From contig QOQW01000026.1 of the NCBI GenBank assembly GCA_003327425.1, positions 1 to 64,000 on the forward strand: a stretch of DNA of 64,000 nt, given 5' to 3'. The translations under genes and the position numbers were made by a program. Origin of the DNA: Candidatus Ozemibacter sibiricus (GTDB lineage: Bacteria > Muiribacteriota > Ozemobacteria > Ozemobacterales > Ozemobacteraceae). Shown one piece after another: positions 26,959 through 39,990 of this stretch. The notes under the pieces are model-generated. The model was not told where the DNA came from. It did not search any database and saw nothing but the letters and a program-made list of their open reading frames with translations. The first letter of the stretch is position 1; the number at the start of each line of letters is the position of its first letter.

Positions 26959-27300
26959 ATGGCAGGCTTTTCCTGCGGTGTCACCGTGGCGGGCGATACG
27001 TGCATCGTGCGGCCGGTCGGCTATCTCGACGACGCGACCGGCCGGGAGATGCGAGCCGCCTTCCAGGAGCCGTTGCAACGGGGAGTGCGGCGGTTCGTCC
27101 TCAACCTGCAGGGAACGCCGGTCATCAACAGTCAGGGCATCACGCAGGTGCTCGAGCTGGTCGAGGAGCTGGTCTACGACCAACAGGGCAGTCTGGCGCT
27201 GGTCGGGGTTTCCGAGCTGTACCTCGAGGTGTTCCGCACGGTGGGCATTCTCCATCTGGTCAGAACCTTCCCTGACGAAGCGTCGGCCTTGCAGCGGTGA
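26959..27300 (+). CDS. STAS-domain protein (anti-sigma-factor antagonist-like)
   Basis: 113 residues covering a single STAS domain: a first strand around CIVRPVGYLDD, then RRFVLNLQGTPVINSQGITQVLELVEEL, then LALVGVSE and a C-terminal helix. The phosphorylatable serine motif usually read as DSSG is NSQG here, so one serine remains. STAS proteins of this type bind anti-sigma kinases in their unphosphorylated form, and SpoIIE phosphatases reactivate them. The CHASE2-SpoIIE gene upstream is a plausible partner. No RsbW-like kinase is visible in the window. The open frame extends upstream to 26728 but those residues look non-coding. Confidence 0.85.
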   Translation: MAGFSCGVTVAGDTCIVRPVGYLDDATGREMRAAFQEPLQRGVRRFVLNLQGTPVINSQGITQVLELVEELVYDQQGSLALVGVSELYLEVFRTVGILHLVRTFPDEASALQR

Positions 27301-27458
27301 GTCGGCTGGCCGCTGGCAGGGGCGGTGGTGTCAGACGAAACATCGCCGGGCTTGGGGAGCCCCACGACCTTCACCTGCCGCTGTTCGGCGCGAAGTCCTG
27401 GCGACCGGCGCCGGAGATTGCAACCCATCTGCGAGAGGAGTAGACTGGGTGAGGTTCC

Positions 27459-28472
27459 ATGCAGAAGAGGAAGCTGGTTTCCGCTCTGATCGCCCTGGTA
27501 CTGCTGTTGTCCACCGGAACGCTGGGGTACCGGATCATCGAAGGCCCGGAATGGACGCTCCTCGATGGGTTGTTCATGACGGTCATCACGTTGGCCACGG
27601 TCGGGTTCAGCGAGACGCACCCGCTTTCTCCCCAGGGAAGGATGTTCACCATCGTGTTGATCTTCCTGGGCGCCGGCCTGATGGCCTATCTGGTGACGAC
27701 GCTGGCGCAGTTCGTGGTCGAAGGAGGCTTGCGAGACCTGCTCGGGAGGCGACGCATGAGGGAACGCATCAAGTCCTTGCATCATCACTACATCGTCTGC
27801 GGCGCCGGCGACACGGGGTGGGTGGTGGCCGATTACCTCCGCCGGCATCAGGCCCCGGTGGTCCTGGTCGATATCGAGCCCAAGACGGTTCAGAGCTTGA
27901 TCGACGAAGGGTTCATCGCCCTCGAAGGGGATGCCACCGCCGATGAGATCCTGGTCGAAGCCGGCTTGGAGCGGGCGGCCGGGTTGGTGGCCGCGCTGCC
28001 GCACGATGCCGACAATGTGTTCGTGGCGCTGACCGCCAAGGGGATCAACCCGCAGGTCTTCGTGGTGTCGACGGCGACCAAGATCGAGTCGGTGTCGAAG
28101 CTGAAGCGGGCCGGAGTGAATTACGTGGTCTCGCCGAACATCACGGCCGCCAATCGCATGGCGTCGGTGCTGATGCGACCGTCGGTGGTCGATTTCCTCG
28201 ATGCCACCCTGGCCGGGGATGATTCCGACCTGCAGATGGATGAGTTCCGCATCCAGCCGGGGTCGGCCCTCGACAATGTCGCCTTGAAGGATGCCGACCT
28301 GCGGCGGCGGTCGGGGGCGATCATCGTCTCGGTCAAGCGGCAGGGGAAGACCGTGATCAACCCGGAACCCACCCATGTCTTCGCCGGTGGGGACATCCTG
28401 GTCGTGATGGGCAATCGCGAGCAGATCAACAAGATGGGCGAGCTGGCCACCGTGGCCGTGGCCCGAGGCTGA
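27459..28472 (+). CDS. Potassium channel with TrkA-N/TrkA-C regulatory domains
   Basis: 337 residues. Two membrane helices (about 7-25 and 61-82) flank a pore loop with selectivity filter TVGF at 47-50 and the outer sequence SETHP in place of the common GYGD. A cytoplasmic RCK/TrkA-N domain (about 108-225) follows, with the Rossmann motif GAGDTG at 115-120 and acidic VLVDIEP. A TrkA-C domain covers about 240-330. This is the MthK-like layout: a two-helix channel gated by ligand binding to RCK domains. GF occurs in place of GY in some K+ channels, but SE after it is less usual. The gene lies 15 bases upstream of the 1930-residue protein gene. Confidence 0.9.
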   Translation: MQKRKLVSALIALVLLLSTGTLGYRIIEGPEWTLLDGLFMTVITLATVGFSETHPLSPQGRMFTIVLIFLGAGLMAYLVTTLAQFVVEGGLRDLLGRRRMRERIKSLHHHYIVCGAGDTGWVVADYLRRHQAPVVLVDIEPKTVQSLIDEGFIALEGDATADEILVEAGLERAAGLVAALPHDADNVFVALTAKGINPQVFVVSTATKIESVSKLKRAGVNYVVSPNITAANRMASVLMRPSVVDFLDATLAGDDSDLQMDEFRIQPGSALDNVALKDADLRRRSGAIIVSVKRQGKTVINPEPTHVFAGGDILVVMGNREQINKMGELATVAVARG

Positions 28473-28487
28473 ATCAGGAGGAGGAAG

Positions 28488-31400
28488 ATGAACGCACGCA
28501 GGGAGCCGCATGGAGGAGAGGGCCGACGTTCGGGCACGACGGGATCCCGCCGGCGAGCGTGGTTCGCCTGGACGCCGGGGTGGCTGCGGCTGGCGATCGT
28601 GCTCATGCTGGTCGGCGCGGCGTGGCGGCCGGCGCTCGGCCAGGAGCGCTCCGCCGCGCCTCCGTCGCCGACGCCATCGCCGGCGACGCCGCCGGTCGTG
28701 CGCACCCTCAAGACGCTCATTCCCTTCACCGAGGTGTCGAAGGTTCTGCAGGACACGGGCCGTCGCTACCTGATGCTGCCGTTCGAAGAGTTCGAACGGC
28801 TGCGGGCGGCCAAGGAGGCGGCGCTGGCCTCGGCGGCGGCGCCCGCTCCCGAAGCGCCGCCGATGGGCTACCGTCTGGTCTCGGCGCGCCTCGAAGGGAC
28901 CCTGGAAGGGACCTTCGTCCGGATGCAGGCCGAATTCAAGCTCGAGAGCTTCCTCGACGACTGGCAGGTGCTCGAGGTGCTGCGCGGACCGCTGGTCATC
29001 GAAGGGGCCACGCTCGACGGCCAGCCGGTCTCGCTGCTGGCCGGGTGGCTGCGGGATGCGGCGCCGCGCCGGCTCGAGTTCGGGCGGGCCAGTCGGGCCG
29101 CCTCTGGCCAGATCTTCCCGGGCACGCGGCTCGGCGCCGAGCTCCTGGGCCAGGACCTGTGGCGGGAAGCCCGGTTCCAGCTGCCCTTCCTGGGGAAGGG
29201 CCTGCACACCGCCAAGATCTCCTTCGTGGCGCCGGTGGAGAAGCGCGAAGATCGGCATGTTCTCGATTTCGTGCTGGCCCCGGTGCCGTTGACCTTCGTG
29301 CAGATCACCTCGCCCGAGCAGGTGTGGTCGGTCGAAGAGACGACCTTCCGCGACTGGACCGTGGAGACCCCCGAAGGGGCCGGCGCTCGCGGTTGCACCT
29401 TCGTGGGCTGGCTGGGCGCCGAGCCCTCCCTGCGCGTGACCTGGCGCCGGCGGGCCCGTCGCCTGATCGACGACGAGCCGGTGCCGACGCCGGCCCCCGT
29501 TCCCGGGCCGGCGACCGGCGCCGCTCCGGTGGCCAGCGCGCCGGCGCCCGCCCCGGTGGTCAAGCCGGTCAAGGCCCCGCCCCGGCCGCTGGTCTACGCC
29601 CGCACCGAGACGCTGATCACGTTGGGCGAAGCGGCGCTGCAAGGGCGTCTCGACATCGAATACTCGATCACCAAGGCGCCGGTGGCGAGCTTCGCCATCC
29701 AGCTCCCCTCGTACGTCGAGGTGCTCGAGGTCACTTCCGATCGTCCGCAGACCTATCAGGTGGTGCGCGAAGGGGAACGCAAGCGGCTCATCGTCGACTT
29801 CCTGGCCGCGCGCGAGGATTTCTGCCCGCTGACCGTCACCTTCGAGGCGAAGATGGATGAAACCCTGGGCACCTACCACCTGCCCGATGTGCATCCGATC
29901 GGGGTGGAACGGGAGCTCGGCACCCTGGCCCTGCAGGCCCTGACCAGCGTCGAGGTGCAGCCTACTGTGGCGATGGACAAGAACCCGCCCCCCCACCTGG
30001 TGCGCATCGACGCGGTGGAATTGCCCGAAACCTTGAAACGGCGGGCGTTCCGGCCGATCCTGCTGGCCTATCGGCTGTCCGGCCGACCCGCGGCGCCCGA
30101 GATCCAGGTCAAGCGCTATGAGGATCTGCCGCTGCAGACGGTGGTGGCCGACCAGATGGACGTCAAGACCTCGTTCACCACCAACGGCAGCAGCCAGACG
30201 CAGGTCACCCTGCGCATCCGCAACAACAACAAGCAGTATCTGACCTTGCAACTGGCCTCGGGCACCGAGGTGATGAGCGCCCTGCGCGACGATCAACCGA
30301 TCAAGCTGGTGGCGGGCCGCGGCGATGGGCGAGTCCAGGTGCCGCTCAAGATGAGCCGCAATCTGGGGCGTCCCGAAGAGATGGAGCTGAAGGTGCTGGT
30401 CAAGAATGCCGTCGCCAGCATGTCCTGGATGGGCGAGCATCGGTTCGAGGCCCCGCTGGTCGACGTGCCGGTCTCGCATTTCTCCTGGAGCCTGTTTGCG
30501 CCGTCGCAGTATACGCTGTTCCATTTCACCGGCACGGTCAATCCGCCCGAACCGCCGCGCGACCCGTTCCTGTTCCGCGGGTTCCTGGCCCTGTATGATC
30601 TGAGCCTGGTGCTGTTGTTCGACCCGAACCTGCTGATGGGGGTCATCTTCCTGCTCGTGCTCATGCTGCTCGTGGTGTCGCGCCATTTCCTGGTGTGGAT
30701 GATCAAAGGCCTCTGGACCCTGGTGACCGAGGGCATCATGTTCATCTTCACCGGCCGCGGCTTCCGCCTGGCGGAGTTGATGATCGTGCTCGCCGTCGTG
30801 GCCTTCTTGGGGGCCATGGCCATCCCCAACTTCCGCAAGGCTCGCGAGCAGGCCCGCACCAAAGCCTGCTATGCCAATCAGCGGGTGCTGCAGGGCGCGG
30901 TCGAGATGTACAACATGGACCATGGCGACCACATGATGACCAGGCTCGATATCAAGGCGCTGCGGCAAGGCCAGTATCTGAAGAGCGATATCGCCAGTCC
31001 GTATCCGCAATGCCGCTACGAAACGGCTGGCGATCTGTCGGGCTCCGGCTTCATCTACTGCACCTTCTGCGGCGGGGTCGAGCGCAGTCTCGAGGAGATC
31101 CAGGCCATGGGCGGGACGCCGGTCGCCCAGGAGCGGTATGCCGCAGCGAGGAACGAGATGGAGCAGGGGGCCCGAGCGGGGGGCGGCGGGCCGGCGAAAG
31201 CCACGGGGTACGGCCAGCCCGGGGCGCCGCCTCCACCGTTCGTGGGCGGGCGCGCCCGCGGCACTTTGCCGATCGAAGCCCGGTTCGTGCTCACTCCCAA
31301 CTTCTGGACGGTCCGGCGCGATCTGGTGCTGGCCGATGTGGCCACCGACGGCACGCTCCTGCCCAACTCGACCTCCCCGCGGGTGGCGGTGCGCTACATG

Positions 31401-34280
31401 CGCTGGGAGATCGTGCAGGGCCTGAAGATCGCGTCCTTCCTGCTCGGTCTGCTGGCCGGGCTCTATTTCATCGGGGCGGCCTTCCACCAATATCTGCCGA
31501 AACTGCTGGCCTCGGGGATCATCCTCACCATCCTCCTCCTTTGGGACAAACTCTACCCGCCCGCCGGCGATGCGGCCAACCTGGGCCTGTGGCTGGCCCT
31601 GATCGGCGGGGTCTTCTGGAAGATCGGCTGGGCGCTTTCCCTGCAGGATTGGAGCTTCGGCGGCAAGGAAAACGATGACGGACCACGCGGCTCGGGCGGG
31701 CCGGGTGGCGGCGCGGGCGGCGGCCGGAACGGACCGCCGCGGCGACCGGCCCCGCGTCCTGCGGTGGCGGGCATCAATTTCGATGACCGGGTGGTCACCG
31801 AGCCCTTGCCCGACGAGGAGGCGGAGGACGATCCGGCCCCGGCCCGCCGCGAGGCGGGGACGCCCACCGCGCGGGCGAGCCGTCTGGGCACGGCGGTGAC
31901 GGTGGGGCTGACGCTGCTGCTGGCGGGCACGCTGGCCACGGCGGCGGCGGGGGCCACCCCGGCCGCTCCGGCCACCCAGGAGATCCGGATCATGGTGCCG
32001 TTCACCGACCTGGCGTCGGTGATGGGGCCGCTCGAGAAGATGGTGCTGATCAGCGAGGACGACTATCGCGCGCTGCAGACCATCGCTTCGACTCCGGAGA
32101 CGCCGCCGGTGCGGCCGCCGGCCGGCTATTCGATCCGGCAGGCGGTCTATCGCGGCACGGTCGGGGAACGCGGCGTGCGGTTCCAGGGCCGGTTCGAGAT
32201 CGACCTGTGGGAGGACGGCTGGAAGACGGTGCCGCTGCTGTCGGCGGCGGTGGTGCCGTCCCAGGCCCGCTGCGACGGGCAGCCGACCCCGCTCGACCTG
32301 ATCCGGGGGGCCGGGCCGTCCGACAGTTCCTATGGGTTGGTGATCAACGGCACCGGCTCGCGCGTGCTGGAGGTGGAATTCTTCCTGCCGCTGGCGGGGA
32401 CCGAGTTCAACACCCGGCGCATCGATTTCCCGACGGTGCCGCTCTGCCAGTCGCGGCTCGAGATCACGGTGCCCGAGGCCGACTGCGATGCCTGGCTCGA
32501 TCCCGGCGTGCTGCGCGTGGTGGCGTCGGGGCCGCAGGGCACGACCTTCCAGGCGCTGCTGCCGCCGACGCCGCGGGTCCGGCTCGAACTGGTGCGGCGC
32601 GTGACGGCGCCGGCGGCGCCGGTGAGCGAGGAACCCCCGCCCGAGGAGGCGCCGGCGCCGGCCAGCGCGCCCGCGCCGGCGGCGGCGCCCGTGGTGGTCA
32701 AGGAAGAGACCCGGGTAGTCGTCCAGGAGCGGAACCTGCTGGTCTTCGAAGAGGGGTTCGTGCGGGGGCGCAACCACTATACGCTGACCGTCACCGGATC
32801 GGATGGGATCAGCAGCTTCTCGCTGCGGGTGCCGTCCGGGGTGCGGGTGCTGAAAGTCGAAGCTCGCACCATCGATGACTGGAAGGTCGAGGAGCCGACC
32901 GGGCCGACCGGCGGCCGGCGGCTGACCATCGCGTTCGCCTCGGTGGTGCGAGGGCAGCTCTCCTTCACCGTCGATTTCGAAGAAGACGTGCCGACCGCCG
33001 CGGCCGAGGCCTACCAGGTTCCCGAACTGATCCCCTTGATGGTGGATCGCAGCCAGGGCCTGCTGGCGGTGGGCTGCCTGCCGGCCTTGGAGCTGGGAGT
33101 GCCCGAGAGCCCGGTGGGGTATACGCCCATCGATGTCGGCGAGTTCCTGCGCGACTTCCAGGGGCAGCCGCCCGAGAAACTGCCGTTCGCCTTCAAGTTC
33201 CTCAAGCACCCCAACAAGCTGGTGGTCGCGGTGTCGCGTCCCAAAGACATCGAGCAGGCGACCGCGGTCGTCGACAAGGCCGAGGCGATGACGCTGGTCA
33301 ACGAAGATGGGTTCATTTTGACGCGCATGGCCTTCGAGGTGCGGAACAACTCCGAGCAGTTCCTGAAGCTGCGTCTGCCCGAGATGCCGGGCGCGGCCTC
33401 GGCCACGCTGTGGAGCAGCGAGGTGGCCGACCAGGCGGTCAAGGCGGGCTACGATCGCGAGCAGGGCGTCTACAATGTACCGATCATCCGGTCGCCGCTG
33501 GTGAACGGTCAGTCGCAGCCGTTCCCGGTCGAAGTGATCTTCGCGCAGCGGCTGCCGGAGGGGTTGCGGTCGTTCATGCCGTTGCAGCTGGCGCTGCCCC
33601 GGCTCCATCTCGACATCAGCGAATTGAGCTGGGTGGTCTATCTGCCCGAGAGCTACGAGCTGATGCGCGGGCAGGGCAATGTCGATCGTTTGATGGAGCG
33701 CCCGTTGCAGCCGCTGCTGGAGGGGCAGAAACGGTTCCCGGGCCTCGATCTGGGCGCCCTGCTGACCACGCGCTCGCAAGCCGCGCTGGGCGGCGATACC
33801 GGCGGGGCCGGCATCGTCGGCCTGCTGCCGGTGGAGTTCCGCATTCCGACGACCGGGTGGTCGACGGCCTTCGTCATGCAGCAGATCGACCCGCGGGGCG
33901 AACCGCCGCGCGTGTCGGGCGTGCTGGTCAGTCCGCGCTCGGGCCGGGGCCAGGTCTTCCAGGTGCTGATGATCCTGTGTGGCGCGCTGGCGGGCATCGC
34001 CCTGGTCTGGTTCGGCACCGGGCCGCGCCGGTTCCTGTGGTTCGTGGTGGTGGCCGCCATGTCGGGCCTCCTGGGGTTCACGTTGGTGATGAAGCTCTAT
34101 CAGGCCGACCATTCGTTCAAGATGGGCTTTTTGACCACGTTCGTGACCCTGATCCTCTTCTACCTCTACCGCTGGAATCCGGCGGCGACGATGGCAGCCG
34201 CGGCCGCTGCGGCCACCCCGCCGAAGGCACCGTCCTCGCCGGATGCGCCTGCCTCGCCGGCCACGCCGGGGGCCGAGTAA
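28488..34280 (+). CDS. Giant two-module membrane protein with internal prepilin-like segment
   Basis: 1930 residues in one uninterrupted frame, with AGGAGGAAG before the ATG. A signal segment lies at about 28-45. Module 1 spans about 70-700: beta-rich with Pro/Ala linkers, starting TLIPFTEVS, and with NNNKQYLTLQL near its end. Membrane helices lie at about 705-730. A prepilin-type N-terminus then follows: G758, F759, E763 in GFRLAELMIV plus a hydrophobic helix, followed by a pilin-like stretch with four cysteines (to about 875). More helices lie at about 980-1060, with a second signal-like helix at 1130-1155. Module 2 spans about 1165-1810: MVPFTDLAS start, NNSEQFLKLRL near its end. Two or more terminal helices finish the protein. 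The modules look homologous. Function unknown. Confidence 0.85.
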   Translation: MNARREPHGGEGRRSGTTGSRRRAWFAWTPGWLRLAIVLMLVGAAWRPALGQERSAAPPSPTPSPATPPVVRTLKTLIPFTEVSKVLQDTGRRYLMLPFEEFERLRAAKEAALASAAAPAPEAPPMGYRLVSARLEGTLEGTFVRMQAEFKLESFLDDWQVLEVLRGPLVIEGATLDGQPVSLLAGWLRDAAPRRLEFGRASRAASGQIFPGTRLGAELLGQDLWREARFQLPFLGKGLHTAKISFVAPVEKREDRHVLDFVLAPVPLTFVQITSPEQVWSVEETTFRDWTVETPEGAGARGCTFVGWLGAEPSLRVTWRRRARRLIDDEPVPTPAPVPGPATGAAPVASAPAPAPVVKPVKAPPRPLVYARTETLITLGEAALQGRLDIEYSITKAPVASFAIQLPSYVEVLEVTSDRPQTYQVVREGERKRLIVDFLAAREDFCPLTVTFEAKMDETLGTYHLPDVHPIGVERELGTLALQALTSVEVQPTVAMDKNPPPHLVRIDAVELPETLKRRAFRPILLAYRLSGRPAAPEIQVKRYEDLPLQTVVADQMDVKTSFTTNGSSQTQVTLRIRNNNKQYLTLQLASGTEVMSALRDDQPIKLVAGRGDGRVQVPLKMSRNLGRPEEMELKVLVKNAVASMSWMGEHRFEAPLVDVPVSHFSWSLFAPSQYTLFHFTGTVNPPEPPRDPFLFRGFLALYDLSLVLLFDPNLLMGVIFLLVLMLLVVSRHFLVWMIKGLWTLVTEGIMFIFTGRGFRLAELMIVLAVVAFLGAMAIPNFRKAREQARTKACYANQRVLQGAVEMYNMDHGDHMMTRLDIKALRQGQYLKSDIASPYPQCRYETAGDLSGSGFIYCTFCGGVERSLEEIQAMGGTPVAQERYAAARNEMEQGARAGGGGPAKATGYGQPGAPPPPFVGGRARGTLPIEARFVLTPNFWTVRRDLVLADVATDGTLLPNSTSPRVAVRYMRWEIVQGLKIASFLLGLLAGLYFIGAAFHQYLPKLLASGIILTILLLWDKLYPPAGDAANLGLWLALIGGVFWKIGWALSLQDWSFGGKENDDGPRGSGGPGGGAGGGRNGPPRRPAPRPAVAGINFDDRVVTEPLPDEEAEDDPAPARREAGTPTARASRLGTAVTVGLTLLLAGTLATAAAGATPAAPATQEIRIMVPFTDLASVMGPLEKMVLISEDDYRALQTIASTPETPPVRPPAGYSIRQAVYRGTVGERGVRFQGRFEIDLWEDGWKTVPLLSAAVVPSQARCDGQPTPLDLIRGAGPSDSSYGLVINGTGSRVLEVEFFLPLAGTEFNTRRIDFPTVPLCQSRLEITVPEADCDAWLDPGVLRVVASGPQGTTFQALLPPTPRVRLELVRRVTAPAAPVSEEPPPEEAPAPASAPAPAAAPVVVKEETRVVVQERNLLVFEEGFVRGRNHYTLTVTGSDGISSFSLRVPSGVRVLKVEARTIDDWKVEEPTGPTGGRRLTIAFASVVRGQLSFTVDFEEDVPTAAAEAYQVPELIPLMVDRSQGLLAVGCLPALELGVPESPVGYTPIDVGEFLRDFQGQPPEKLPFAFKFLKHPNKLVVAVSRPKDIEQATAVVDKAEAMTLVNEDGFILTRMAFEVRNNSEQFLKLRLPEMPGAASATLWSSEVADQAVKAGYDREQGVYNVPIIRSPLVNGQSQPFPVEVIFAQRLPEGLRSFMPLQLALPRLHLDISELSWVVYLPESYELMRGQGNVDRLMERPLQPLLEGQKRFPGLDLGALLTTRSQAALGGDTGGAGIVGLLPVEFRIPTTGWSTAFVMQQIDPRGEPPRVSGVLVSPRSGRGQVFQVLMILCGALAGIALVWFGTGPRRFLWFVVVAAMSGLLGFTLVMKLYQADHSFKMGFLTTFVTLILFYLYRWNPAATMAAAAAAATPPKAPSSPDAPASPATPGAE

Positions 34281-34295
34281 GGAGCGACCAGCAGG

Positions 34296-35087
34296 ATGGA
34301 CGAGCCCTTCCCCTTCCCTGACGTTCCGGCCGTGCCGCCGTCGCCCGCGCCGCCGCCTCTCGGCGGCGGCCGGGACGGAGCGGGCCCTGACGTTCGGGGA
34401 GGGAGGGCGCCGACGGAGAAGCTGCCGCTCGGCGGCATGGGCCTGCCCTTGATCCTGTTCGTGCTCTCGGTCTGGTTCTGGCACAGCCCCCTCGTCTATC
34501 CGATCAAGATCCTGACCGTCTTCTTCCATGAGCTGTCGCATGGGCTGGCGGCGGTGGCGACAGGAGGGCGCATGCATGCGATCGAGCTGACGGCCGATCA
34601 GGGCGGTCTGTGCTGGACCGCCGGCGGCATCACCTGGATCATCCTGTCGGCCGGCTATCTGGGCAGCCTGCTGTGGGGGTCGGGCCTGCTCTGGCTGGCG
34701 GCCAAGACCCGCTGGGATCGCGAGATCGTCCAGGGGCTGGGGCTGCTGCTGATCGGGGTGACGGCGGTCTATGTCCGGACCTGGTTCGGCCTCGCCTTCG
34801 GCCTGGGGTTCGGTCTGGCCCTGCTGGCCCTGGCCCGCCATTTCGGCGCGGTCGTCTGCGACCAGTTCCTGCGCTACATCGGCCTGACTTCGAGTTTCTA
34901 CGTGATCCTTGACATCAAGTCCGACCTGATCGATCGAAGTATTCCTCAATCCGATGCCTTCCGGCTCGGGGAGATGATCCACCTGCCGGGGTGGGTGGTC
35001 GGAGTCGGCTGGATGGTGGTCGCCATCTGGCTGACCGTGCGTGTGCTCGAATCGACCATGACGTCGGACCCGGGGAGCCGGGTCTGA
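34296..35087 (+). CDS. M50B-family membrane metalloprotease
   Basis: 263 residues. A Pro/Gly-rich cytosolic N-terminus (about 1-45) is followed by at least six membrane helices. The zinc motif is HELSH at 78-82 inside a helix, as in the M50B-like proteins (PF13398 type). These relatives of site-2 protease cut substrates within the membrane, although activity in this subgroup is little tested. Encoded 15 bases after the 1930-residue protein, which has many membrane helices and could be its substrate or partner; that is only inference. Confidence 0.87.
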   Translation: MDEPFPFPDVPAVPPSPAPPPLGGGRDGAGPDVRGGRAPTEKLPLGGMGLPLILFVLSVWFWHSPLVYPIKILTVFFHELSHGLAAVATGGRMHAIELTADQGGLCWTAGGITWIILSAGYLGSLLWGSGLLWLAAKTRWDREIVQGLGLLLIGVTAVYVRTWFGLAFGLGFGLALLALARHFGAVVCDQFLRYIGLTSSFYVILDIKSDLIDRSIPQSDAFRLGEMIHLPGWVVGVGWMVVAIWLTVRVLESTMTSDPGSRV

Positions 35088-35157
35088 GACGAGATCCGAT
35101 CGGCGGTCCGGCCGCGGCCGGCAGCCAGCAAACACCATTTTCGGGAGGTTCCGCTGC

Positions 35158-35550
35158 ATGTTCATGCCCTTCGGTGAGATCAAAGACAACACCCTGACCA
35201 TGTCCTTCAGTTCGGCCGACTACTCGATCGCGACGGTGCTCAATGCGGTGCGCGAGCGGTGCGACATGTTCAGCGAGATGAAGGTGCGGTTCCTGGGAGC
35301 CAGCACCGACGTTCCCAATACCCCGTCGCCGGTATTCCGCCCGGTGGCGATCCAGGCGTTCTTCGAATACATCGGGGGCGGTGACGCCCGCCCGGTGCTG
35401 GAAAAAGTCTATGTGCATCTCTGGGAAGCAGTCGCCCTGACCTTCCCGGCCGAGCCGGCGTGGGCCACCGCCAAGGGCGATTTCGCCCGCTTCATCTCGT
35501 CGCAGGCCGATCTGATCCGCGCCCGCATCGAGAGCGCCAAGGCGGAATGA
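35158..35550 (+). CDS. Hypothetical protein, 130 residues
   Basis: Soluble protein with mixed helix and strand, no signal peptide, and no family I recognise. The ATG at 35158 has GGGAGG nine bases upstream. The last codons overlap the ATG of the next gene (ATGA), so it is translationally coupled to the DUF2207-like protein. The sequence EIKDNTLTMSFSSADYSIATVLNAVRER gives the impression of a small alpha/beta domain. A regulatory or accessory role for the membrane proteins in this operon is possible. Confidence 0.7.
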   Translation: MFMPFGEIKDNTLTMSFSSADYSIATVLNAVRERCDMFSEMKVRFLGASTDVPNTPSPVFRPVAIQAFFEYIGGGDARPVLEKVYVHLWEAVALTFPAEPAWATAKGDFARFISSQADLIRARIESAKAE

Positions 35551-37412
35551 GCAGGATGGCCGCGCCGATGAGCGCCCTCCCCGCCTGGGGGTTCCCCGTT
35601 CGGCGGGGCGGCCGCGCGCTGGCTGGCCCGCGGCCCGCCGCCAGGTCGGCCGGCCGGTCGGTCGCCTGGTGGATGGCCTGGGTGGGGTGCCTGCTGCTGC
35701 TGGGCGGTTCTCTGGCCGCGGCGCCGCGGGTCGATTTCCAATGGATCGAGACCGATCTGACCCTGACCGGCAACGGGCACGGCATCGTCGTCACCAAGAT
35801 CCGGGTGGCGGTGCAATCGGAAAGCATGGGCGGTCTCGACTACGAGGGCATCGCCGGCGAGCCGCGCTTCGAGGCCGACAAGTGCCTGGTGCTGCGCCAG
35901 AACCGGACCAGCCAGCCGGTCAAGGTGGTGCGCCAGGGCCGGACCTGGGCGGTCGATGTCATCGGCGAGCGCATTCCGGCCGGGGAATGGGCTACCTGGG
36001 TGCTGACCTATACGGTCAACCTGCTGGCTTCCGGCCATCTCGGCCTGACACGGCATGAGAAAGACCAGTCGGAGCTGGTCTATCTGAACTGGGCCGATCC
36101 GGCCTGGGACGAACCGCTCGAGCATCGCACGATCTACCTGCATCTGCCCTACGAGGTGCCGGGTAGTGCGGTCGAGGTCGAGAAGTGGCGGCGGACGATC
36201 CTGACCGAACCGTTCATGAACGCCCAGTACAAGATCGATTATCGGGGGCAGCGCGGGGAAGATGGGAAGTTCTGGCTGACGCAGGTGCTGCACCGCGAGA
36301 AGGTCGGGACCAGAGAAGAGATGCGCGTGCAGCAATACTTTCCGCGGTCGGTCTTTTCCGGTTTCACCTTCAAGGCCGAGGTCAGGTCGCCGGGAGCGGT
36401 CGGCCTGGGGCGGCCGGGGCTGCCCAAAGAGCTCGACCAGGCGCGAAACCGCATGAACCGATCGAGCCTGAAGGGGATGGCCCCCATGCAGCAGAAGGTG
36501 TTGCTGGGGTTGGCGCTGGGGGGGCTGATGACGCTGACGCTGGTGCTGTTGCATCTCAAGCGCCACCGCGCCGCCCAGGAGGTGAGCAAGCTGCCCGACC
36601 TGAGCTGGGAGGGCGAGAACTGGGAACCGCCGCGCATCCAGGTGGCGACCTTCCGCAAGAACGGCAAGGTGGCCGAGCTGACGGTCCTCGAGGCGATGAT
36701 GCTGCTCGACTATCCGGTGACCCGATTGTTGGCCTGCATGCTGTCGAACCTCGAGCAGAACGGGGTGCTGACCATCACGTCGACGCAGCCGGTGCGGGTA
36801 CGGTTTCTGGTCGACCATCCGACCAGCATCGATCCCTATGAGAGCCTGCTGATCCAGGCCGTGGGCTCGGAAGGGGAGATCCTGCCCGAGACGGCCAAGG
36901 GCATCTTCTACAAGCTCGTCGATTCCTTGCAGGCCAAGATGTGGGATGCCGATGTCGAAGCGACCAAGGCCTACTATCGCGCCGAACTGGCCCGGGCCGC
37001 CCAGGAGGCCGATCCCGCCCAGCCGGTCGATGACTCGACGGTGCCGGTCTTTCGACGGAGGTACTACCGGCGATCCTATGTCCGGTCCTGGTACTATCAC
37101 CACCATTATGGGCGATCGCGCTTGTCGGAGGTGCCGCCAGGCGAGGGCCAGCCGGCGCCGCCGCCCGTTCCCGACCGGTTCGACAGCCGAGTGGCCGAGC
37201 TGGAGCCGGGGCTCGGGCAAGTGGGCAACGTCGCTCCGACCATGAGCCTGGGCGATCTGGTCAAATCGGATGCCTGTCATGCCGCCTGCTACGTGCATAC
37301 GGCCTGTCATGACGCCTGCCACAGCGCGTGTCACAGTGCCTGCCACAGCGCCTGCCACAGCGCCTGCCACAGTGCCTGTCACAGCGCCTGCGTTTCGGGC
37401 CGGGCCCGCTGA
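35547..37412 (+). CDS. DUF2207-like membrane protein with C-terminal Cys-His repeats
   Basis: 621 residues from the ATG at 35547, overlapping the previous stop. A hydrophobic export signal lies at about 38-58 behind an Arg/Pro-rich start. A beta-rich exported domain at about 60-290 resembles DUF2207 (SGHLGLTRHEKDQSELVYLNW region). One membrane helix at about 313-335 is followed by a cytoplasmic helical domain (KVAELTVLEAMMLLDYPVTRLLACMLSNLE), a Tyr/Arg-rich stretch and a tail of 47 residues (575-621). That tail has ten cysteines and nine histidines, mostly as CHSA units. DUF2207 proteins often end in Cys-rich tails, but the strict Cys-His alternation here suggests metal or cofactor binding. 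Confidence 0.82.
   Translation: MSRMAAPMSALPAWGFPVRRGGRALAGPRPAARSAGRSVAWWMAWVGCLLLLGGSLAAAPRVDFQWIETDLTLTGNGHGIVVTKIRVAVQSESMGGLDYEGIAGEPRFEADKCLVLRQNRTSQPVKVVRQGRTWAVDVIGERIPAGEWATWVLTYTVNLLASGHLGLTRHEKDQSELVYLNWADPAWDEPLEHRTIYLHLPYEVPGSAVEVEKWRRTILTEPFMNAQYKIDYRGQRGEDGKFWLTQVLHREKVGTREEMRVQQYFPRSVFSGFTFKAEVRSPGAVGLGRPGLPKELDQARNRMNRSSLKGMAPMQQKVLLGLALGGLMTLTLVLLHLKRHRAAQEVSKLPDLSWEGENWEPPRIQVATFRKNGKVAELTVLEAMMLLDYPVTRLLACMLSNLEQNGVLTITSTQPVRVRFLVDHPTSIDPYESLLIQAVGSEGEILPETAKGIFYKLVDSLQAKMWDADVEATKAYYRAELARAAQEADPAQPVDDSTVPVFRRRYYRRSYVRSWYYHHHYGRSRLSEVPPGEGQPAPPPVPDRFDSRVAELEPGLGQVGNVAPTMSLGDLVKSDACHAACYVHTACHDACHSACHSACHSACHSACHSACHSACVSGRAR
37317..37388 (+). repeat. Six 12-bp tandem repeats encoding CHSA
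   Basis: Six units of a 12-base repeat (variants of TGCCACAGCGCC) lie end to end inside the Cys-His tail of the DUF2207-like protein, preceded by diverged units. Synonymous differences between units show the amino acids, not only the DNA, have been kept. Confidence 0.85.
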
Positions 37413-37429: not shown

Positions 37430-37552
37430 ATGAGCGAAACCACTGATGGCAAGGTTCGGCCTTTCGAACCAGGCGAAGACAAGCGCATCGCGGTCGAGAT
37501 CATGGACGACCGCGGCATCGAGAGCATGACGTTGATCGAGGTGGACGCATGA
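37430..37552 (+). CDS. Small ORF resembling the C-terminal tail of a DNA methyltransferase
   Basis: 40 residues. The sequence RPFEPGEDKRIAVEIMDDRGIES resembles, from memory, the C-terminal end of large adenine-specific DNA methyltransferases of restriction systems. If so, this is the last fragment of a lost gene, or a detached tail kept as a small ORF. Its stop overlaps the ATG of the nucleotidyltransferase (ATGA), so it may serve as a translated leader for the toxin-antitoxin pair. No clear ribosome site. The family assignment needs a search. Confidence 0.45.
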   Translation: MSETTDGKVRPFEPGEDKRIAVEIMDDRGIESMTLIEVDA

Positions 37553-37854
37553 ATCCCAACCTGACGATTCCGCGCGAGCAAATGGCGGCTTTTTGTCGAA
37601 AGCACGGTATTCGACGATTGGCCATTTACGGATCGGCTCTAAGGGAGGATTTTGGTCCCGATAGCGACGTGGACGTGCTGGTCGAGTTCGAGCCGGCCCG
37701 TATTCCGACGCTCTTTGACCTGGCCGGAATGGAGCAGGAATTCTCAACCCTGCTGGGCGGGAGAAAGGCGGATCTCCGCACCCCCGGCGATCTGAGCCGG
37801 TATTTCCGCCAGGAGGTGATGGAGGAGGCGGAGGTGCAGTATGAGGCCGGATGA
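37549..37854 (+). CDS. mntA: MNT-type nucleotidyltransferase antitoxin (MntA-like)
   Basis: 101 residues of a minimal nucleotidyltransferase. The signature GSX10DXD is present as G28-S29 and D40-V-D42 (IYGSALREDFGPDSDVDVLVEF), with a later acidic KADLRTP. In MNT/HEPN modules this protein adds AMP to, and so silences, the HEPN ribonuclease toxin. The partner gene follows with a 14-base overlap. The base composition of this pair is less GC-rich than its neighbours, consistent with horizontal acquisition. Confidence 0.9.
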   Translation: MNPNLTIPREQMAAFCRKHGIRRLAIYGSALREDFGPDSDVDVLVEFEPARIPTLFDLAGMEQEFSTLLGGRKADLRTPGDLSRYFRQEVMEEAEVQYEAG

Positions 37855-38182
37855 CCGTATTCGCCTCCACCACATGCTCGAGGCGGCCGAGCAGGCCAGG
37901 GCGTTCATCCTGAACAAACGCCGAGACGATCTGGAGAATGACCTGCAATTGGTTTGGGCGCTTGTCAAAGCGATGGAGATTATCGGCGAGGCGGCCTGTC
38001 AAGTCGGCTCAGAAACCAGGGCGCAGTTCCCACAGATCCCGTGGGAGAAAATCACGGGGATGCGACACCGGCTTGTCCATGCCTATTTCGACATAGACCG
38101 CGATATCCTGTGGAAGACCGTTCAAGATGGGCTCCCGCCCTTGATCACCGTTCTCAAGGGCGCTCGAGGAGAGACTGCTTGA
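37841..38182 (+). CDS. hepT: HEPN-domain toxin ribonuclease (HepT/DUF86)
   Basis: 113 residues, all-helical HEPN domain. The catalytic RX4HXY motif is intact: R75, H80 and Y82 in RHRLVHAY. HepT cleaves RNA when not modified by its MntA partner. It overlaps mntA at the 5' end, and its TGA overlaps the ATG of a 40-residue ORF. Together the genes make a typical mobile toxin-antitoxin module that may act in phage defence or stabilise the locus. Confidence 0.92.
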   Translation: MRPDDRIRLHHMLEAAEQARAFILNKRRDDLENDLQLVWALVKAMEIIGEAACQVGSETRAQFPQIPWEKITGMRHRLVHAYFDIDRDILWKTVQDGLPPLITVLKGARGETA

Positions 38183-38304: not shown

Positions 38305-38496
38305 AAATGGTACGATGCCCGAGGCTTGGCCGGACCTGGTACGGAACGCCTGGTATCTCTTTGGCTGAGATTGACGGGAGACGCTGATGGCCTGGCGTGT
38401 GAGGCAATGCGAGGAAGTGAGGATGGGAGGCGAGCAAGAGCAGGCAGCGGACGGCGCGGTGCGCCGCCGCTGTTGCTGAGCGTCGGAGCGAAAGGA

Positions 38497-39990
38497 ATGG
38501 CGACGAAGGAGAGCGCGGTGCCGCCGGCCCAGCAGTTTCCCTTGCACTGGGTCGATGGGTTGATCCGGGAGATCAGGCCGCACGTCTTTGTGCGCGAGAT
38601 CGATCAGTTGCTGATTCTGCTGCCCAATCAGTCCTACCGCCTGAATCGCACGGGGTTCCGTTTGATGCAGGCCCTGCTCGACGGGCAGACCCTCGACCAG
38701 GTGCTGGGCGGGCGGGAGCCGCCGCCGGCGGTTCGGCGCGACCTGTTCGCGTTCTTCACCGGCATCGCGGCCATGGTCAAAGGCTGTCTGGGGGAAGGCC
38801 GCGATCGGCCCGAGGTCGAGGCCATCCCCTACCGACGGCCCTGGCTGGCGTTGCCCATCCTGTCGGAGGTGGCGCTGACCTATCGATGCAATCTGGCCTG
38901 CCGCTTCTGCTATGCCGGCCCGCATCGCGACCGGGCCTGCGCGGCGGCCGGGCGCGGTTGCCCGCCGCCGGCGACGGGGCAGGGCCCAGGTGTGGCGAGT
39001 GGGGAGGGGGCCTCGGGCGGGAACGGAAACGGGGCCGCCGCCGCCGCGGCCTCTGGTGGCCTCGCTGTGGCCGGGGCGCCGTCGCGCGAGATGTCGACCG
39101 CCGAGGTCGAGCGGGTGCTGCGCATCATCCGGCAGGAGGCGCAGGTGCCGTCGGTCTCGTTCACCGGCGGGGAACCCACCCTGCGCGACGATCTGCCGCA
39201 TCTGGTGCGGGTGGCGGCCGACCTGGGCCTGCGGGTCAATCTGATCAGCAACGGGGTGGCGCTGACCACCGAGCGGGTGGCCCGTCTGGCCGCCGCCGGC
39301 CTCGATTCGGCCCAGATCAGTCTCGAGGGTCCCGATGCCGAAACGCATGAGCGCCTGACCGGGGTGCCGGGGTCGTTCGCGGCGACGACGGCGGCGGTGC
39401 AGGCCTTGGTCGCGGCCGGGGTGCCGGTCCATACCAACACCACGCTGACCGGGCTCAACGTCGAGGCGGCGGTGCGGATGCCCGCCCTGGTCAAACGCCT
39501 GGGGCTCGATCGATTCTCGATGAACATGGTGATCCCGGCGGCCTGGATGCGGGAGGCCGAGCCCGCGCTGCTGCTGACCTATCGGGAGATCGGAGCGCGG
39601 GTGCTGGCGGTGCGCGACGCCGCGCGGGCGGCCGGGGTGCGGTTCATGTGGTACTCGCCGACGCCGTATTGCCTGTTCAACCCGATCGCGCACAACCTGG
39701 GAAACAAGGGGTGCGCGGCGTGCGATGGCTTGTTGAGCGTCGATCCGGCCGGGCGGGTGATTCCCTGTTCGAGCTACTTCGAGCCCCAGGGCTCCTTGCT
39801 CGAGATGCCGTTCCAGGCCATCTGGCAGGCGCCGTCGGCGGTGCGGTTGCGCGAGAAGCGGGCGGCGCCGGCGCGCTGTCGCGAGGGCTGTCCGACGTTC
39901 GACCTGTGCGAGGGGGCCTGCCCGCTCTACTGGCAAGCCATGGGAGAAGATGAATTGAGGAAGAAGGAGGGAGACGGATGCCTACGATGA
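38497..39990 (+). CDS. Radical SAM/SPASM protein with PqqD-like N-terminal domain
   Basis: 497 residues from the ATG at 38497 (GGAG eight bases upstream). An N-terminal domain of ~95 residues (HVFVREIDQLLILLPNQSYRLN, then LLDGQTLDQVL) resembles PqqD/RiPP-recognition folds. The radical SAM core has CxxxCxxC at C131, C135, C138, and SFTGGEPTLRDD for SAM binding. Between these lies a Gly/Ala-rich insert of ~50 residues (about 145-195). The C-terminal SPASM-like region has CAACDG, IPCSSYFEP and CREGCPTFDLCEGACPLYW for extra iron-sulfur clusters. Enzymes of this layout modify ribosomal peptides or proteins. No precursor peptide is evident nearby. It overlaps the next gene by 13 bases. Confidence 0.88.
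   Translation: MATKESAVPPAQQFPLHWVDGLIREIRPHVFVREIDQLLILLPNQSYRLNRTGFRLMQALLDGQTLDQVLGGREPPPAVRRDLFAFFTGIAAMVKGCLGEGRDRPEVEAIPYRRPWLALPILSEVALTYRCNLACRFCYAGPHRDRACAAAGRGCPPPATGQGPGVASGEGASGGNGNGAAAAAASGGLAVAGAPSREMSTAEVERVLRIIRQEAQVPSVSFTGGEPTLRDDLPHLVRVAADLGLRVNLISNGVALTTERVARLAAAGLDSAQISLEGPDAETHERLTGVPGSFAATTAAVQALVAAGVPVHTNTTLTGLNVEAAVRMPALVKRLGLDRFSMNMVIPAAWMREAEPALLLTYREIGARVLAVRDAARAAGVRFMWYSPTPYCLFNPIAHNLGNKGCAACDGLLSVDPAGRVIPCSSYFEPQGSLLEMPFQAIWQAPSAVRLREKRAAPARCREGCPTFDLCEGACPLYWQAMGEDELRKKEGDGCLR

Follow-up and report, generated by a model that had tools for sequence, protein, structure and literature searches.

The locus described here raises the question of what a type IV pilin segment, complete with a prepilin-type cleavage motif, does in the middle of a large polytopic membrane protein. 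It lies in a window of 64,000 nucleotides (contig QOQW01000026.1, positions 1 to 64,000) from Candidatus Ozemibacter sibiricus, whose close relatives are Riflebacteria of the family Ozemobacteraceae. Genomes are denoted by G-numbers, G000 being the window's own genome (5.68 Mb). The window's family is denoted f1; three further families, f5, f6 and f7, are placed in the same phylum by the kinship table, although their records carry the names Wallbacteria or Muiribacteriota. A literature search revealed no description of a polytopic protein with an internal pilin, and the original prediction, made from the sequence, likewise knew of no described system with this layout. Known pilin fusions place the pilin first, enabling its entry into the filament, whereas here it is trapped in a polytopic protein and yet tracks the lineage's own PilA in several lineages. 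The embedded motif is also a direct test case for the cutting of an internal site by prepilin peptidase.

Architecture of the host protein

The host gene is a continuous, stop-free open reading frame with AGGAGG preceding its ATG codon (Table 1). Nine further full-length orthologues of 1784-1910 aa, from different genera and about 35-67% identical, have an intact frame in each case, confirming the uninterrupted frame noted originally. The same continuous architecture recurs in independent MAGs from several studies, which refutes an assembly or frame artefact fusing two genes; nothing was found in favour of such an artefact, and its probability is negligible. An antisense frame of 2675 codons (window positions 27174-35201, minus strand) was taken as a high-GC artefact, the conserved protein being that of the plus strand.

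Table 1. Features of the host gene and of its conserved neighbours in the window.
Feature	Positions	Strand	Evidence
Potassium channel, TrkA_N/TrkA_C, conserved upstream neighbour	27459..28472	+	Pfam; synteny in family
Polytopic host protein, 1930 aa	28488..34280	+	Open frame; full-length orthologues throughout family
N-terminal signal-peptide-like hydrophobic segment, residues 31-51	28578..28640	+	Hydropathy
N-half, predicted periplasmic beta-sandwiches, residues 60-690	28665..30557	+	AF2, Foldseek; BLAST homology to C-half
TM1, residues 713-733	30624..30686	+	Hydropathy 2.54; AF2 helix
Cytoplasmic stretch joining TM1 to the pilin helix: amphipathic helix 734-754 and TGRG turn	30687..30761	+	K/R-rich loop in homologues; AF2 turn 755-758
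Prepilin-type motif G758/FRLAE763	30759..30776	+	Sequence, alignments, codon comparison
Pilin alpha1, residues 759-811	30762..30920	+	AF2; ComGC/GspG and PDB pilin matches; tree with PilA
Pilin head with Cys 842, 858 and 861, residues 812-868	30921..31091	+	Alignment, AF2
TM3-TM5, residues 974-1052	31407..31643	+	Hydropathy, AF2
TM6, signal-peptide-like, residues 1133-1155	31884..31952	+	Hydropathy
C-half, repeat of N-half	31953..33932	+	BLAST, N-half against orthologue C-halves, E to 1e-34
C-terminal TM7-TM9	33945..34181	+	Hydropathy; TM9 by eye only, under hydropathy threshold
M50B-like membrane metalloprotease (HELSH), conserved downstream neighbour	34296..35087	+	Pfam E=1e-45; synteny in family

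BLAST matches of the N-half to the C-half of orthologues show that the two halves of the protein are related and arranged in tandem. The whole protein had no match in Pfam, even at E=1, and the C-half had none among PDB sequences. Both halves are taken to be sets of periplasmic beta-sandwiches. The AF2 model of the N-half showed a weak likeness, with low TM-scores, to OST1/ribophorin I and VIT-type folds in Foldseek searches; such VIT/VWA and ribophorin I-like proteins differ from the 1930-aa protein, given these low scores and its lack of Pfam matches, although VIT-VWA proteins of this phylum also bear a pilin head. In the membrane block that separates the halves, TM1 leads through a short cytoplasmic segment into the pilin helix and head, after which come TM3-TM5, a linker on the cytoplasmic side and TM6. 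Downstream of the pilin module, seven transmembrane helices were found by hydropathy, TM9 being assigned by eye.

The embedded pilin module and its prepilin-type motif

Residues 758-868, with the GFRLAE motif, a long helix and a Cys-bearing head, form a type IV pilin module. The translation contains the motif at residues 758-763, as predicted, along with four cysteines (794, 842, 858 and 861). Searches with NCBIfam models matched ComGC (NF040999) at residues 757-838 with E=5e-11 and GspG (TIGR01710) with E=5e-7, both below their curated cut-offs (42.6 bits against 75, and 29.8 bits against 88.85, respectively). Of the 21 aligned orthologues, only 4 were matched by Pfam N_methyl, at E=0.006 at best. 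An orthologue profile matched geopilin, PilA and GspG chains of the PDB at 2e-9, with the alignment running from mature residue 1. In the AF2 model of residues 690-876 (pLDDT 92.8), a 53-residue pilin helix begins at F759, right after the TGRG turn, and among PDB folds the model comes closest to Thermus PilA4 (probability 0.91, E=0.11). Profiles, alignment and AF2 all indicate a pilin alpha1 with a hydrophobic N-terminal half. The closest free-standing relative of the module within the genome is PilA, a short prepilin (MNKRRG/FTLIELMIV...) with 61% identity that is encoded in a pilB-pilT-pilA operon, behind pilB and pilT. In further genomes from the phylum, and in Cloacimonadota, this gene order is likewise conserved. 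The embedded segment is therefore beyond doubt a real pilin module, as first proposed. The major pilins PilA, ComGC and GspG are its direct homologues, from which it differs in not being N-terminal, in carrying Arg at +2 and in scoring below the curated family cut-offs.

The search for orthologues with the same fusion revealed the module at the same fixed place across Ozemobacteraceae, and it recurs in Wallbacteria and Muiribacteriota (f5, f6 and f7). The sequence of the pilin helix is strongly retained in the alignment of orthologues.

The stretch preceding the pilin helix is a hydrophilic, K/R-rich loop in the homologues from f6 and f7 and in those of paralogue 2, and the parity of transmembrane helices between the two exported halves is consistent with a cytoplasmic Gly758. 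The placement of the Gly-Phe bond on the cytoplasmic face, where the original prediction had it, is thus supported by homologues. The alternative topology, with residues 735-753 as a transmembrane helix and the head in the cytoplasm, was rejected because the corresponding loop of the homologues is hydrophilic and because parity would then confine the C-half to the cytoplasm, despite its homology to the exported N-half.

The prepilin-type motif is located downstream of the signal-peptide-like segment and TM1 rather than at the N terminus of the protein. The Gly-Phe-Arg-Leu-x-Glu pattern is complete in 11 species. Compared pairwise with the window in nine cases, the codons for Gly-1, Phe+1, Arg+2, Leu+3 and Glu+5 show synonymous differences only; purifying selection on this pattern in the motif-intact clade is supported by sequence comparison. 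The Gly/Phe/Glu set is absent in G014, G008, G007 and G006 and in the homologues from f5, f6 and f7, while G009 and G011 keep Glu+5 with Phe+1 gone and G003, with Ala at -1, keeps the set only partly. Residue -1 is not fixed, being Ser in G009 and His in f5, and some copies have Gly or Ala at -1 without Phe+1 and Glu+5. Processing of prepilins depends critically on the last residue of the leader, Gly or else Ala, while Glu5 is dispensable (PMC4471445; PMC10191384). Gly at -1 being critical (PMC4471445), the lineages with Ser or His at this position should not be cut.

The original prediction had prepilin peptidase cutting after Gly758, yielding a membrane-anchored N-half and a polytopic C-terminal part with a mature pilin-type N terminus. 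For the window's clade we consider this unlikely, though well worth weighing: the motif is complete and kept by purifying selection, its site is probably cytoplasmic, the residue critical for processing, Gly-1, is in place, prepilin motifs abound in the genome, and the genome also encodes a complete prepilin peptidase that contains the sequences VVDYRYYIIPD and GWGDVK. This part of the prediction finds support within the clade; however, the set is lost in sister genera (G014, G007, G008 and G006) and in f5, f6 and f7, and is incomplete in further orthologues, therefore cleavage is not a function of the whole family. Orthologues lacking the set were what the original prediction named as its refutation, and their existence partly counts against it. 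In addition, Arg at +2 is foreign to other prepilin motifs (see below), and the hydrophobic helix upstream might block the peptidase. The mature pilin-type start envisaged for the C-terminal half cannot make it a filament subunit: the C-terminal product would retain the seven transmembrane helices that follow the module, and therefore could neither enter a filament nor polymerise.

A separate small prepilin could alternatively be made from the same gene by an internal start at Met751, 8 residues ahead of the cleavage bond. This option was rejected as highly improbable, since no Shine-Dalgarno-like sequence was seen by eye close upstream and Met at or near this site is absent in several motif-intact orthologues; moreover, the head is not followed by a stop codon.

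All intact embedded copies have Arg+2, whereas among 64 further prepilin motifs of the loci examined this position is occupied by Thr (51), Ser (11) or Ala (2), and by a basic residue in 0/64. Arg or His at +2 occurs in 15/15 embedded copies with Glu+5 versus 1/9 without it, with a Fisher value of 1e-5 that is overstated, the sequences being related and not phylogenetically independent. The normal partner of Glu5 in filaments is considered to be the N-terminal amine of an adjacent subunit (PMC10191384). A basic +2 residue therefore fits an uncleaved helix, in which the internal Arg three residues before Glu5 could stand in as charge partner. Against this argument stand the non-independence of the +2/+5 count and the VWA host protein in G001, which appears, in a by-eye alignment, to combine Glu+5 with Ser+2.

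The closest known analogues are modular type IV pilins such as Streptococcus sanguinis PilB with its grafted vWA domain, in which the pilin is N-terminal and the grafted domain is presented probably at the filament tip; the published census of them covered N-terminal motifs only (PMC8179133). What they share with the present case is the linkage of a pilin to non-pilin modules, which in other proteins of the phylum can be of VWA type. Modular pilins polymerise and carry the extra module C-terminally, whereas here the pilin is internal, preceded by a signal-peptide-like segment and TM1 and followed by seven transmembrane helices, with Gly-1 unfixed. The 1930-aa protein thus falls outside the definition of modular pilins as N-terminal pilins with a C-terminal, filament-compatible graft (PMC8179133).

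Relation of the module to the pilins of its own lineage

In the phylogenetic tree, as well as in a broader one, the embedded modules of f1, f5, f6 and f7 each group with the PilA of their own family. A single clade of embedded modules was rejected by the AU test (delta lnL 123, p-AU 7.6e-5), and with it vertical descent of the module from one ancient fusion. Over the 52 residues from the PNF motif on, the modules are 54-73% identical to the PilA of their own family versus mostly 29-52% to those of other families, the exception being the f7 modules, which are 56-62% identical to Cloacimonadota PilA; embedded modules of different families are mutually only 29-48% alike. The embedded f1 modules group together as one clade (95/95), giving no sign of recent conversion. 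Such lineage-matching would follow from repeated capture, from gene conversion or from tight co-evolution, which are indistinguishable here because the tree of the host protein is limited by long branches. These comparisons show mimicry of PilA at the level of sequence.

Another pilin class was revealed in a paralogue of the host protein, paralogue 2 (G000:C7, about 422160-427523; L021:4161-9524), which has relatives elsewhere. Its same-site helices in G004 and G010, VLASISGPMLSSITDQG and VLASVAGPMVGSITDQG, are of a second pilin type and match alpha1 of a GspG-like prepilin, VLASVAGPMIGSITDQG (pairwise BLAST 2e-11), that stands alone in about 18 genomes of the family. Paralogue 2 follows PilT-type ATPases in G000 and G001, where its own helix has diverged; among the genomes checked, this adjacency is limited to genus g1. 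In G000, it adjoins a pair of pilT-type genes as well as a gene for an adenylate/guanylate cyclase.

The second, GspG-like alpha1 is also borne by a VWA protein of 660-690 aa, and the pilin head occurs without the helix on a VIT-VWA protein, a lipoprotein and a zinc-ribbon protein. In the VWA protein of the window's genome (G000:C23, L246:2405-4444, minus strand) and its relatives (L247-L249), the membrane anchor has a near-identical counterpart in the GspG-like prepilin helix, VLASVSGPMIGSITDQG. An A2M-like protein from family f8 (G036, L254:2-3808) carries the embedded pilin helix STRVAELMIVILIIAVLAAIAVPNF.

The best reading of these data, to which we give close to an even chance, is that the host protein is a membrane-locked PilA mimic that docks on the pilus system. 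A captured PilA would form the second membrane helix of the host together with the adjoining periplasmic head, between the two beta-sandwich halves. The other helices would lock it in the membrane, preventing extraction into a filament, and its PilA-like face may use the PilA pool or the pilus base in the inner membrane as a docking site; docking is the most likely job because both helix and head resemble the PilA of the same lineage. In this way the large periplasmic halves would be tied to pilus assembly or sensing. Nicking by prepilin peptidase after Gly758, the main rival, is compatible with a docking mimic; it may occur in the window's clade, and the proposed mechanism would work without it. 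If docking on pilins is true, it would constitute a new means of coupling membrane proteins to type IV pili, and would offer a natural probe for the features that a pilin helix recognises within the membrane.

The identity to the operon-encoded PilA, the grouping with own PilA, the GspG-like helix in both the paralogue and the VWA protein, the paralogue's place beside PilT-type ATPases in genus g1, the basic +2 residue and the seven helices after the module favour docking, and suggest that the host protein touches the pilus system. Other observations speak against it. Gly-1 and Phe+1 are under purifying selection in the intact clade, whereas an uncleaved mimic needs neither. Furthermore, this copy's locus is without pilus genes, synteny in the family revealing none beside the gene and a K+ channel and an M50B protease as its conserved neighbours; only the paralogue adjoins pilT. 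Both neighbours might also be tied to the pilus system.

Pilin helix and head could instead be a mere anchor or spacer, likened to own PilA by recombination with pilA and devoid of functional contact. The wide shuffling of pilin heads in the phylum, found in VIT-VWA, lipoprotein, zinc-ribbon and other contexts, agrees with such a role, but the reuse of the same site in four families, each time resembling own PilA, the different pilin class in the paralogue and the retention of the helix sequence make it improbable. Extending the docking reading, we tentatively suggest, with less confidence than for the host protein itself, a phylum-wide class of membrane-locked pilin mimics. In it, large periplasmic adhesion-type proteins (double beta-sandwich, VWA and A2M-like) may have repeatedly taken up, and kept matched, alpha1 of own PilA or of a GspG-like pilin, sometimes with the head, for docking on specific type IV filament systems, with optional nicking in one clade.

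Genome context and neighbouring genes

The set of type IV filament genes in the window's genome is unusually large, as judged from domain matches. N_methyl matches the genome 97 times at E<=0.01, mostly above the Pfam cut-off, and T2SSF and T2SSE/PilT matches are likewise numerous.

Elsewhere in the window, a DUF2207-like membrane protein with a Cys-Xaa-Xaa-Xaa repeat tail (HACHSACHSAC...; 35460-37412, plus strand) is encoded near a radical SAM/SPASM protein (38326-39990, plus strand; Pfam E=2e-26), suggesting that the Cys-repeat tail is modified by the radical SAM enzyme; TIGR04117 gave only a weak match (E=0.05). Between these two genes, an MntA-like nucleotidyltransferase and a HepT-like HEPN protein, paired by eye, are encoded at 37549-38182 (plus strand).
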